A stretch of 64,000 nt of DNA. Source: Actinocrinis puniceicyclus (GTDB lineage: Bacteria; Actinomycetota; Actinomycetes; Streptomycetales; Catenulisporaceae). Numbering within the stretch: the first letter of the stretch is position 1; each line of letters opens with the position of its first letter. Shown here piece after piece: positions 1-4,158 of the stretch. The position numbers and the translations under genes are program-made. The stretch is taken from the NCBI RefSeq assembly GCF_018283645.1, contig NZ_JAGSXH010000012.1:1-64000 (forward strand), read 5' to 3'. The notes below the pieces were generated by a model. It saw nothing but the letters and a program-made list of their open reading frames with translations, was not told the DNA's origin and did no database searches.

Positions 1-1157
1 GGGATGACCTGAGCGCCGCTCGGCGGCTGCTGCGCGGCGCGAGACCGGGCGGCGGCGGCCTGCGCGCCAGCGCCCCCGGCGACACCCGCTGCCGCACCGG
101 CACCGGCACCGGCGGCAGCGGGTCCGACCGGCGCCGGCTTCGCCCGCTCGGCGCCCTGGGGCGACGCGGCGCCGTTCGCGACGGCGACATTGCCCTGCTG
201 CGGCGGACGGCTCGGCCACACGGCATGAGGTGCGGCGTGCGCGCCTGCCCCTGCCCCGGCCGCGATATTCTCCTCGGCGGACAGCGCGGGCAGCACCACC
301 GTGCCCTCACTCGGGTTCACCGGCAGCCGCACGGTCGTGCCGTCCTGCTTGACACGCACCGCCGCGCGCAACCGGGACGCCAGCTCGCCGGCCAGCGGCC
401 GCAACTGCGGATCCTTCGCCAACGCCGCGGTCGCCACGGCCCACAGCCGGTCCGAAACGCCCGGCGGGCGCTGTGGCGTGGCGGTCTGATGCGCGCGGAA
501 GACCTCCATGGCGTCGCGGCCGCGGAACGGCGGATGCCCGGTGAGCAGTTCGTAAAGCATGATGCCCGAGGCGTAGATGTCCACTGCGGCGGTGGCCTTG
601 CGACCCGAGATCACTTCCGGCGAGAGGTAGTACGGCGTGCCGACGACCTGGCTCGTGCGGGTGACCGACGGCGCGTCGGCCAACCGCGCGATCCCGAAGT
701 CGGTCAGCAGCGGCCGGAAACCGCCGACATCCGGCTTGAGCAGCACGTTCGCGGGCTTCACGTCCCGGTGAATGATCTTCGCCGCGTGGGCGACGGCGAG
801 CGCCTCCGCCACATCGGCGACCAGCAGCGCGGCCTCCTCCGACCCGAGCGTGCCACGCGCGCGCAGGTAGGCTCGCAGGTCCGGGCCGTCGACCAGCTGC
901 ATCACCAGCGCCAGCACATCCCCCTCGACCACGAGGTCGCGTACTGACACCAGCGAGCGGTGTCTCAGGCCGACCAGCGCGGTACGCTCGCGCAGGAACC
1001 TGGTGACCACGTCCGGGTCCGCGGCGAGTTCCTCCAACAGCACCTTGACGGCAACCGCCTCGCCGGTGTCCCGAACATGCCCCCGCCACACCGACCCGAA
1101 GGCCCCGCGCCCCAACTGCTCATCCAGCTCGTATCGGCTGCCGATCGGCTGACCCAC
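1..1157 (-). CDS. Hanks-type serine/threonine protein kinase, C-terminus cut by window edge
   Basis: Read from GTG at 1157 (preceded by GGGGGAG), the protein shows a complete kinase domain: glycine loop GRGAFGSV near residues 16-23, catalytic Lys38 in AVKVL, catalytic loop HRDVKPAN (130-137), DFG (153-155) and GTPYYLSPE (173-181) closing the activation segment. After about residue 275 the chain becomes Ala/Pro/Gly-rich and runs off the left edge, so any membrane segment or sensor domain is unseen. Such kinases phosphorylate Thr residues read by FHA domains. The divergent neighbour at 1513 has an FHA domain, so a kinase-reader pair is plausible but inferred. The substrate is unknown. Confidence 0.93.
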   Translation of the reverse strand, partial: MGQPIGSRYELDEQLGRGAFGSVWRGHVRDTGEAVAVKVLLEELAADPDVVTRFLRERTALVGLRHRSLVSVRDLVVEGDVLALVMQLVDGPDLRAYLRARGTLGSEEAALLVADVAEALAVAHAAKIIHRDVKPANVLLKPDVGGFRPLLTDFGIARLADAPSVTRTSQVVGTPYYLSPEVISGRKATAAVDIYASGIMLYELLTGHPPFRGRDAMEVFRAHQTATPQRPPGVSDRLWAVATAALAKDPQLRPLAGELASRLRAAVRVKQDGTTVRLPVNPSEGTVVLPALSAEENIAAGAGAGAHAAPHAVWPSRPPQQGNVAVANGAASPQGAERAKPAPVGPAAAGAGAGAAAGVAGGAGAQAAAARSRAAQQPPSGAQVI

Positions 1158-1512
1158 GAAACCTCTCCCCCAGTTGTCGACTCGGGCTGGCGCCGCCGCG
1201 GCGCAGCGGACAACGCAAGGTCACACTAGTGCCGCCACCGCTTCCGGTGGGATCGCCCCATGGTTTCGTACCCAACCTGCTACAGGAGCCCGGCGACGCG
1301 CCGAGCGCGTACGTCGGCGGTTGGTGCACCTTGGCGGCTCATGCGCTCAGGACGGTGGTGTCCGGCTCTGTCTTCAGCCCTCGGCGCATATGCTCTCGGA
1401 TACCGTGACTACCGGCGAGAATTGACCGGACATCGAACCGTGCCACCCCGGCAGCGTTCGAAGAGCCGACATCGACAGCCTGGGTTCTCCCCATCCTGAT
1501 AAGGCAGCGCGC
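1158..1512. promoter_or_regulatory. Divergent control region between kinase and FHA gene
   Basis: This 355-base gap must hold the promoters of both divergent genes. A perfect 6-bp inverted repeat, CCACCG-CTTC-CGGTGG, lies at 1235-1250, upstream of the kinase. A TTGACC resembling a -35 element lies at 1422-1427 on the plus strand, but no convincing -10 follows at normal spacing. No small gene was seen. Confidence 0.4.
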
Positions 1513-4158
1513 ATGCAGATCCGACTCTCCGTGGCCTCGAACCGTGACGAGGCACGCGAGGAGGCCGGACTTGACTGCGTAGACGCAGTCGTCAAAGTGG
1601 CGGCCGGCACGCCGTTCAGCGCCGCCGCCGGGGCGCTGCGGGCACAGGCAGGGTTGACGGACGGCCGGTTCTACGCCGGCACGGAGCCGGTGCGCGACGA
1701 CACGCCGCTCGGGCTGCCTCCGCTGCTGGACGGCGCCGTGCTCACGGTCGGTGTTCCGGGCGCGCCCACGACGCTCCCGGGCGGCCTGGAACTGCACGTC
1801 GTCGGCGGCCCGGACGCTGGAGGCGTGCACCTGATCGCACCGCCCGAGCCGGGAGCGGAACCGGTGCGGATCGCGATCGGCCGCGGTCCGGCCGCGCAGG
1901 TGCGCGTCGAGGACCCGGACCTGTCCCGGCTGCACGCCGAGCTGCTCGTCACCGCCGACTGGGTGCGGCTTCGCGACGCCGGATCCACCAACGGGACCAC
2001 CCTGGACGGCACCCCGGTCGGCGACGAGCCGGTGCTGCTCCTGCCCGACGCCGTCGTGCGTCTCGGCGAGACCACCCTCATGCTGCGATCCGCGAACGAC
2101 CCGGCCGAAGCGGAACCGGACCGGCTCGGGCGCGTGCGGGTGCGTACCGAGCGGCATGTGCCGGCCGGCCTGCCCGCGCCGCGCATCGACCTGCCGCCGC
2201 TGCCGGCGAACCGCGGACTGCCCGCGCGCCGCCGCCGCGCCGCGGCCGCGTTCGAGCAGACCAAAGCCGCCACGGAGAAGCAGATCGCGGACGCACTGGC
2301 GGCCGAGGCCGCGCTGCGCCGCCGGCGGCATCCTGACCTCGCCGCGCTGCTGACCGCGGCGATCCGGCCCGAACCGGGACTGTGGTCCCGCGATCCGGAC
2401 GGCGCCGGCCTGCTGGAGCTGCGGCTCGGGACGGCGCGGATCGCGTCGCGGGTCACCGTGCGCTCCGGGCCGAAATCCTTCCGCCCGCGCGTTCCCGCCG
2501 CGCCGGTCACCGTCGACCTGGAGTCGGCCGGGGTGCTCGGCCTGGTCGGCCCGCGCCCGCAGCTGACCCGGCTCGCCCGCTCGCTCGTGGCCCAACTGGC
2601 CGCCGGTTGCGCGCCGCGCGACCTGGAACTCGTGATCCTCTGCGGCCAGGAGCCACAGCGCTGGCGGTGGGCGCGCTGGCTGCCGCACCTGATCCCGCAG
2701 GACGGCCAGGACTGCCGGGCGCTGGTCGGCCTGGACACGGCCCAGGCCCAGGCCCGGGTCGCCGAACTGCTGGGCAGGCTCGAAGCCCGCGAGGCGGAAT
2801 CGGGCGCCGGCCCGCACACCACTGGGTCTTCGAGCGCGTTCGGGCAACCGTGGCGCGCAAGGCGCACCGTCCTCGTGCTCGATCCGGCCTCGGCGCTGTC
2901 CGGACTGCCGGGCCTGCAGCGGCTCCTGAACGACGGACCTCAGTTCGGCATTCACGCGATCGTGCTCGCCTCACGTCCCGCGGAACTGCCGGACGCCACC
3001 GGAGCGATGGCGACGCTTGGCGGCGACGTGCACACGCGGGTGCGGCTGGAGCGGCCGGACGCCGCGGCTTTGGAGAACATCATCGCCGACCTCGCGTCCG
3101 CGCAGTGGGCGGAACGCCTCGGCCGCGCGCTCGCCCCGCTGCGCGAATCGGACGACTTCGGCGCGCCGCAACTGCCGGAAGAGGCGCGGCTGCTGGCGCT
3201 GCTGGATCTGGATCTGCTGACTCCGGCCAAACTGGGAGCGCGCTGGGCGCTGCGGCCGGCCAGCGCGGAGCTGACCTTCGGCGCCGACGACCACGGTCCG
3301 GTGCGCGCCGATCTGACGGGGCAACACATCCTGGTCGCGGGCGCGGCGGGCTCCGGGGTGTCCGAGACGCTGCGCTCGATCACGTGCGCGCTGGCGGCGG
3401 TCAACCGGCCGCAGCACCTGCGCGTCACGCTGGTCTCCGGCGGCGACGGCCCCTCGCTCGCCGACTGCGCCGCGCTGGCGCACACGAGCGCGCATCTGCC
3501 CGCGCAGGCGCCGCCGGACGACCTGCGCGCGCTGTTGGACCGCCTTGAGGCCGAAGTCGAACAGCGAGTTCAGGCGGCGCGGCGCCGGGCCGTCGAGGAC
3601 CCGTCGGACCTACCGCACCCGCCACACCCGCCACACCCGCCACACCCGCGACTGCTCATCGTCGTGGACGGTTTCGACGCGCTGGCCGCCGCTCATCCGT
3701 GGTTCGCCAAGGGCCTGGCCGCGGTGGCACGCGACGGCCGGGACCACGACGTGCATCTCGCGATCGGCCTCACCCTCGAAGACCCGCAGGCGGTACGCCT
3801 GCTCGACGGCGAGTTGTGTGACGAGGCGCAGATCCGCATCGCGCTGCGCACCCACGGCGTGGATGAGTCCCGCAGACTGGTCTCGCTGTCCGCGGCCGCC
3901 TCGATCCGCGCCGAAATGCCCGGCCGCGCGCACCTCGCGCTCCCGGACGGCCGGGTGCTGCCGATGCAGGCCGCGCTGATCAGTGGCCGTATGCCGTCCA
4001 CCGCATCCAGCCGGGCGAGCGCGATCCGGCTGGAGTGGACCGAACTGGGCAACCCGCTTGCGCGCCGCCCGGGCGACGCTTCGCCGGGCGCCGCGCCGGG
4101 CGGCCCGACCGACCTCGCGCTGCTCGCCGAGACGGTGCGCCGGGCCGCCTCCCGCTAG
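1513..4158 (+). CDS. FHA domain protein with FtsK/EssC-like ATPase body and degenerate P-loops
   Basis: An 881-residue protein. An N-terminal ubiquitin-like/EssC-type segment is followed by an FHA domain at about 95-193, with the usual Gly123-Arg124, Ser138-Arg-Leu-His141 and Asn160 phosphothreonine-binding residues. The rest resembles the tandem ATPase modules of FtsK/EccC/EssC proteins. Both P-loops lack the catalytic lysine: GLVGPRPQ near residue 345 and GAAGSGVS at 610-617, with Val616 at the Lys position. A Walker B-like strand LLIVVDGFD (714-722) is kept. A Pro-His-Pro repeat (703-712) precedes it. The start ATG follows AAGGCAG. It may be a non-hydrolysing scaffold controlled by the divergent kinase; no ESX genes are nearby. 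Its function is not known. Confidence 0.85.
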   Translation: MQIRLSVASNRDEAREEAGLDCVDAVVKVAAGTPFSAAAGALRAQAGLTDGRFYAGTEPVRDDTPLGLPPLLDGAVLTVGVPGAPTTLPGGLELHVVGGPDAGGVHLIAPPEPGAEPVRIAIGRGPAAQVRVEDPDLSRLHAELLVTADWVRLRDAGSTNGTTLDGTPVGDEPVLLLPDAVVRLGETTLMLRSANDPAEAEPDRLGRVRVRTERHVPAGLPAPRIDLPPLPANRGLPARRRRAAAAFEQTKAATEKQIADALAAEAALRRRRHPDLAALLTAAIRPEPGLWSRDPDGAGLLELRLGTARIASRVTVRSGPKSFRPRVPAAPVTVDLESAGVLGLVGPRPQLTRLARSLVAQLAAGCAPRDLELVILCGQEPQRWRWARWLPHLIPQDGQDCRALVGLDTAQAQARVAELLGRLEAREAESGAGPHTTGSSSAFGQPWRARRTVLVLDPASALSGLPGLQRLLNDGPQFGIHAIVLASRPAELPDATGAMATLGGDVHTRVRLERPDAAALENIIADLASAQWAERLGRALAPLRESDDFGAPQLPEEARLLALLDLDLLTPAKLGARWALRPASAELTFGADDHGPVRADLTGQHILVAGAAGSGVSETLRSITCALAAVNRPQHLRVTLVSGGDGPSLADCAALAHTSAHLPAQAPPDDLRALLDRLEAEVEQRVQAARRRAVEDPSDLPHPPHPPHPPHPRLLIVVDGFDALAAAHPWFAKGLAAVARDGRDHDVHLAIGLTLEDPQAVRLLDGELCDEAQIRIALRTHGVDESRRLVSLSAAASIRAEMPGRAHLALPDGRVLPMQAALISGRMPSTASSRASAIRLEWTELGNPLARRPGDASPGAAPGGPTDLALLAETVRRAASR

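Follow-up and report, generated by a model that had tools for sequence, protein, structure and literature searches.

The window, by which we mean the whole stretch of 64,000 nucleotides analysed, opens with two divergently transcribed genes (Table 1). One encodes a PkaA-like Ser/Thr kinase and the other a protein that combines a ubiquitin-like (UBL) fold, an FHA domain and a region related to the EccC/EssC motors of type VII secretion. Since the window begins at base 1 of contig C33, the kinase gene is incomplete. Its visible product matches PF00069 (E 3.2e-51), and the AVKVL, HRDVKPAN and DFG motifs readable in the translation provide the Lys, HRD and DFG expected of a Hanks-type kinase. A preliminary description of this DNA had placed a divergent Hanks kinase next door: a kinase does adjoin the gene, but it is divergent in its direction of transcription only, divergence in sequence being ruled out by the PF00069 match.

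Table 1. Features of the kinase and UBL-FHA genes, in window coordinates
Feature	Position	Strand	Remarks
Ser/Thr kinase, PkaA-like	1..1157	-	divergently transcribed; cut at contig end, 385 aa visible
Shared divergent promoter region	1158..1512	.	between kinase and UBL-FHA gene
UBL-FHA-EccC-like gene, predicted pseudo-ATPase	1513..4158	+	881 aa; ORF call, hydropathy without transmembrane helix
Ubiquitin-like fold, residues 1-81	1513..1755	+	separate model and fold comparison
FHA domain, residues 90-195, pThr-ligand residues intact	1780..2097	+	PF00498 E 4.7e-12, fold comparison
EccC-type stalk and DUF domain, residues 205-546	2125..3150	+	fold comparison
FtsK/EccC-type ATPase fold and C-terminal helix, residues 551-881	3163..4155	+	PF01580 (FtsK_SpoIIIE) E 5.6e-12, fold comparison
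Broken P-loop GAAGSGVS, residues 610-617	3340..3363	+	V616 replaces Lys
Broken Walker B LLIVVDG, residues 714-720	3652..3672	+	G720 replaces Glu; hhhhDE usual

The open reading frame starts with MQIRL, as it does in relatives. Besides the two Pfam domains, the NCBIfam model EccCa (TIGR03924) matches residues 327 to 826 (E 4.7e-55), bearing out the earlier view of an FHA-linked protein related to FtsK/EccC; the score of 187.6 bits lies below the curated cut-off of 509.15 bits, which places the protein outside EccCa proper. An AlphaFold model of the 881-residue chain, built from 50 aligned sequences (mean pLDDT 89.8, pTM 0.79), agrees with fold comparison on the two ATPase-like folds proposed earlier. 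The stalk and DUF align with a chain of the ESX-3 core complex that we take to be EccC (Z 21.9, rmsd 3.5, 297 residues aligned) and residues 551 to 881 with ATPases 2-3 of EssC (Z 28.5, rmsd 2.5, 261 aligned, VIA-align). The FHA region resembles the CT664 FHA domain (Z 18.3, rmsd 1.5, 98 aligned, VIA-align). For residues 1 to 90, folded apart (pLDDT 82.1), the best matches were all ubiquitin-like (Hub1: Z 8.9, rmsd 2.1, 71 aligned); an ESX-3 core complex chain, presumably EccD, also matched (Z 8.2, rmsd 2.5, 73 aligned).

The protein thus has the stalk, DUF and FtsK-type ATPase folds of an EccC/EssC motor; it has neither the transmembrane helices that precede the DUF nor the three ATPase domains that follow it. 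A simple hydropathy scan found no transmembrane segment, and the chain stops after ATPase 1, with ATPases 2 and 3 absent by NCBIfam, model and fold comparison. As modelled, it is one soluble chain made of a ubiquitin-like fold, an FHA domain, the EccC stalk/DUF and a single ATPase fold. In a loop of that fold before the Walker B motif, a short tandem repeat (positions 3616-3648 of the window) encodes HPPHPPHPPHP, at residues about 701 to 712; it has low pLDDT and does not occur in the aligned relatives compared.

The FHA and nucleotide sites across the order

An ortholog was found in 386 of the 391 genomes of the order to which Streptomyces belongs (N-terminal alignment search, E 1e-20 or better), a number that includes two weak matches (G012, 4.0e-22; G374, 1.8e-25), so that 384 is the safer count. 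Four of the five genomes without a match (G088, G122, G194 and G255) contain C-terminal pieces, at least some of them at contig ends, and the fifth (G013) is 81% complete. The window protein has both the FHA fold and its G-R, S-R-x-H and S-T-N-G residues; the ligand residues described earlier as kept (G123, R124, S138, R139, H141, S158, T159, N160 and G161) proved invariant in 57/57 relatives from the order. Thr occupies position 159 in all of these, versus 9/19 outgroup proteins. The domain would accordingly be expected to bind phosphothreonine. In six of six close pairs omega was below 0.4 in every domain, ranging from 0 to 0.11 for FHA and from 0.10 to 0.29 for the ATPase domain (plain Nei-Gojobori, with no high-G+C correction). 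Judged by these ratios, all domains are under purifying selection, the FHA domain being kept most strictly.

The nucleotide site has a different history. We aligned its motifs in 57 proteins of the order and in 19 outgroup proteins, which belong to other orders of the class; two rows were dropped, L170 (missed by the HMM) and L156 (unreadable in the motor region). Four rows are truncated or frame-broken (L134, L137, L153 and L154), so the P-loop counts comprise 52 letters plus the deletion in L050; in L138 the P-loop is present and the Walker B is not readable. Two of these, L134 and L153, are Streptomyces loci in which the broken or shortened frame may reflect real decay or an assembly error. 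The P-loop lysine is present in 18/18 outgroup rows. Within the order, its position holds Arg in 37 rows, Val in 7, Ile in 2 and Lys in 6, with the single deletion and four unreadable rows. Val or Ile is found in 9/9 members of the window's family, probably Catenulisporaceae, and Arg in most Streptomyces. The Walker B glutamate is present in 18/18 readable outgroup rows versus 0/52 readable rows of the order, where Asp (43), Asn (5) or Gly (4) stands instead. An arginine-finger candidate, R673, is found in 18/19 outgroup proteins, its column being ambiguous in the order.

The preliminary description had both ATPase modules losing the P-loop lysine. This stands for the second module (V616). The first is the EccC DUF, which never had one: alignments show the lysine missing there also in intact relatives and in mycobacterial EccC5, and its absence is therefore ancestral. 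The broken Walker B (VVDG) is a further defect, Walker B having gone unmentioned before. An intact P-loop elsewhere, which would have spoken against a disarmed motor, was looked for along the 881 residues, and no second P-loop-like stretch was found.

How strictly the motifs are defined affects the verdict. The excerpted text of PMC9436818 gives [A/G]xxxxG[K/R][S/T] (Walker A) and hhhhD[E/D] (Walker B) as canonical for EssC. By this relaxed rule, both motifs pass in 18/18 outgroup rows and in 42 of the 43 readable order rows outside the window's family; within that family neither passes in any of the nine, the window reading GVS and VVDG. In six further genomes from five other genera of the order, we found K + DD in four genomes of four genera and R + DD in two genomes of one genus. 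When Lys presence was mapped on a quick tree that excluded eight outgroup rows and every paralog, it changed four times within the order (five with the outgroup counted). At least four changes within the order on this tree imply that the P-loop lysine was lost more than once. From the motifs, we regard "pseudo-ATPase" as a firm prediction for the window protein and its family. In the Streptomyces orthologs the site may still hold ATP, so that calling it "dead" could overstate the case.

Kinase neighbours, sigma-E and the probable S. coelicolor counterpart

Conservation of the kinase-FHA pairing, a check suggested at the outset, held throughout: in 56/56 fetched loci of the order, the adjacent gene on the opposite strand encodes a Ser/Thr kinase (16/16 by similarity cluster, 40/40 by BLAST). 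The 16 assignments rest on similarity clusters, with a Pfam check on four kinases (the window's, two of L052 and one of L257). The kinases are mostly two in tandem, followed by prfB, ftsE and ftsX where the fetched stretch reaches that far; Pfam identified these three genes in the single Streptomyces locus examined in this way. In genome G015 there is a lone kinase instead of the pair. In the genome that contains the window, a second kinase (756 residues) and prfB sit at the end of contig C3, so the kinase pair-prfB arrangement probably applies there too. This second kinase (L257:6201-8471) has a possible transmembrane segment; its long C-terminal part, in which Pfam recognises nothing, is perhaps an extracellular sensor.

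The S. coelicolor pkaA gene is SCO2974, and SCO2973 encodes the tail-anchored kinase PkaB, according to the available portions of PMC6767563 and PMC3087755. The PkaB tail as printed matches our locus L195 at 93%. A table in PMC6767563, among the portions of that paper available, gives both pkaA and sco2975 (a "hypothetical protein") as sigma-E targets. Locus order (next to pkaA) and the match of the PkaB tail make SCO2975 probably the ortholog of the window protein, the likeness between these two proteins being one of position. We searched the kinase strand for a sigma-E-like site, AAC-N16/17-CGTC, up to 400 bases from the start of the adaptor gene. Such a site precedes the kinase in 35/41 Streptomyces loci, where mono-shuffled sequences gave a mean of 2.2 and a maximum of 6 in 200 shuffles. 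It occurs in 0/10 loci of the window's family and f3 together, and in the window's divergent region the kinase strand carries none. The pkaA sigma-E site as printed (29 bases) had 0 matches in the genome contigs searched.

Related motors and a possible origin

Several known systems share parts of this architecture. EccC/EccCa of the T7SSa (ESX) likewise has the stalk first, then the DUF and one FtsK-type ATPase, with fold Z values of 21.9 and 28. The window protein differs in being predicted soluble, in lacking ATPases 2 and 3, in its broken Walker A and B motifs, in its added FHA and UBL domains and in scoring below the EccCa cut-off. FhaA, GarA and OdhI are FHA adaptors that serve actinobacterial kinases, and their FHA folds are close to that of the window protein (3oun_A, Z 16.0; 7rj3_C, Z 16.1; 4qcj, Z 16.2); they are, however, small and have no motor-derived part.

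An N-terminal FHA domain on an EccC-like chain is also found in EssC/YukB (T7SSb) and TsdC/TseC (T7SSd/e), as stated in the accessible parts of PMC11217815. In the same parts, TsdC/TseC are said to keep the phosphothreonine residues, with a kinase linked to T7SSd, whereas the EssC FHA domains are without the phosphothreonine site. These proteins are nonetheless membrane motors that have WXG100 partners and, like all the FHA-bearing EccC/EssC relatives with kinases described there, four predicted NTPase domains (PMC11217815, same parts). Those parts describe no soluble or catalytically dead form, and the paper nowhere uses the word Streptomyces. A literature search found no functional study of the protein.

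Outside the order, the same UBL-FHA N terminus belongs to proteins that mostly measure 1,366 to 1,633 residues and usually have three P-loops and a hydrophobic segment near residues 225 to 275. We examined 20 such loci (L155-L174), chosen from the strongest N-terminal matches and not at random. They share the N terminus of the window protein but have intact K + DE (18/18), ATPases 2-3 and, in most, the hydrophobic segment; alongside, in place of kinases, 10/20 have a homologue of the Tad pilus ATPase, two of them partial. These Tad/Flp-adjacent loci are L155, L156, L159-L161, L163-L165, L168 and L172, and in L160 Pfam recognises T2SSE and T2SSF. In the available excerpts of PMC11217815, Tad linkage is given for the FHA-less T7SSg/h. 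In three of the 20 (L160, L162 and L172), prfB and ftsE lie within the stretch. The proteins of the order form one clade (SH-aLRT 100), whose branching point among the outgroup motors the tree, from a short search with long-branch warnings, did not fix.

The simplest story would be that a membrane motor at a prfB-ftsE locus lost its transmembrane segment, ATPases 2-3 and the Walker B motif, while kinases took the divergent position. Extended to the whole order, this becomes a more tentative proposal, to which we give somewhat less than even odds: the UBL-FHA-TM-EccC membrane motor would have been rebuilt into a soluble, ATP-independent phospho-reader, a signalling scaffold derived from a secretion motor. 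The transmembrane segment, ATPases 2-3 and the Walker B Glu would have gone first and the P-loop Lys later, more than once, as a kinase pair came to fill the divergent position, which in many outgroups is taken by a Tad pilus operon. The rebuilt protein might still be part of an EccC/EssC-like ring. If true, this would define a class of "pseudo-motors" comparable to the pseudokinases.

A candidate kinase adaptor and its alternatives

We favor, with a probability of roughly 0.55, the reading that a disarmed type VII (EccC/EssC) motor here serves the neighboring PkaA/PkaB-type kinases as a cytosolic phosphothreonine adaptor. We favor it because the FHA site is invariant beside the kinases and the motor fold is kept without catalysis. 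In this model, the kinase would phosphorylate either itself or a protein of the envelope or of cell division, the FHA domain would dock on the resulting phosphothreonine, and the ubiquitin-like, DUF and pseudo-ATPase domains would form a protein-binding, oligomerising platform rather than an engine. The identity of the partner, the oligomerisation and an involvement in envelope stress or growth are what we infer from this arrangement. Three findings count against the adaptor: the sigma-E-like site is missing in the window's family, 42/43 Streptomyces-side orthologs fit the relaxed Walker consensus, and G015 has one kinase and not a pair. Should it hold, Streptomyces would have a candidate partner for PkaA/PkaB that is conserved and hardly studied, encoded at a locus that also contains prfB-ftsEX and is under sigma-E control. 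The protein would also exemplify a secretion ATPase turned signalling part; since living lineages preserve the stages (K + DD, R + DD, and V/I + G/N), each step can be tested.

The motifs of the Streptomyces-side forms could instead be read as a nucleotide-binding switch that holds ATP and hardly hydrolyses it, as has been described for EssC D2, with the window's family as a degenerate tip. We consider this unlikely. The G[K/R][S/T] and hhhhDD motifs are indeed retained in 42/43 of those forms and Lys in four other genera of the order, and the excerpted text of PMC9436818, besides counting both K/R and E/D among the canonical residues of EssC, reports intact ATP in a D2 site. Yet the window's family scores 0/9 both for K/R and for an acidic second Walker B residue, the loop is deleted in one lineage, and the gene has been retained through repeated loss of Lys (the four in-group changes).

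Retention of the stalk, DUF and ATPase folds would also suit the phospho-switch put forward in the preliminary description: a pseudo-subunit, controlled by phosphorylation, that recruits a real EccC/EssC/FtsK ring or else caps or poisons it. Candidate rings exist in the same genome: contig C406 encodes a true EccC (EccCa 932.8 and EccCb 870.5 bits, against cut-offs of 509 and 347), accompanied by EccB and a mycosin-like protease that scores below its cut-off, and three further loci encode full-length UBL-FHA-TM EssC-like motors. We nevertheless hold this to be improbable. The ATPases 2-3 and transmembrane helices thought to hold EccC/EssC rings together (PMC9436818, excerpted text) are absent, and an unsystematic look recognised no T7SS or WXG100-type gene among the conserved neighbors, which are the kinases, prfB and ftsEX. 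The three EssC-like motors (L038, L039 and L040, on contigs C111, C381 and C384 of G000) have UBL/FHA-like N termini; one of them adjoins transglutaminase and DUF58 genes, and the FHA residues of L038 look degenerate.

Finally, the Pro-His repeat in the window's pseudo-ATPase region and the faster evolution of the ATPase domain than of the FHA domain in relatives might suggest that the gene is a remnant of a lost secretion locus, decaying and retained by chance, but this is very improbable given the 57/57 FHA residues, and a pseudogene is ruled out by the presence of the gene in 386/391 genomes with omega below 0.4 in every domain and pair.
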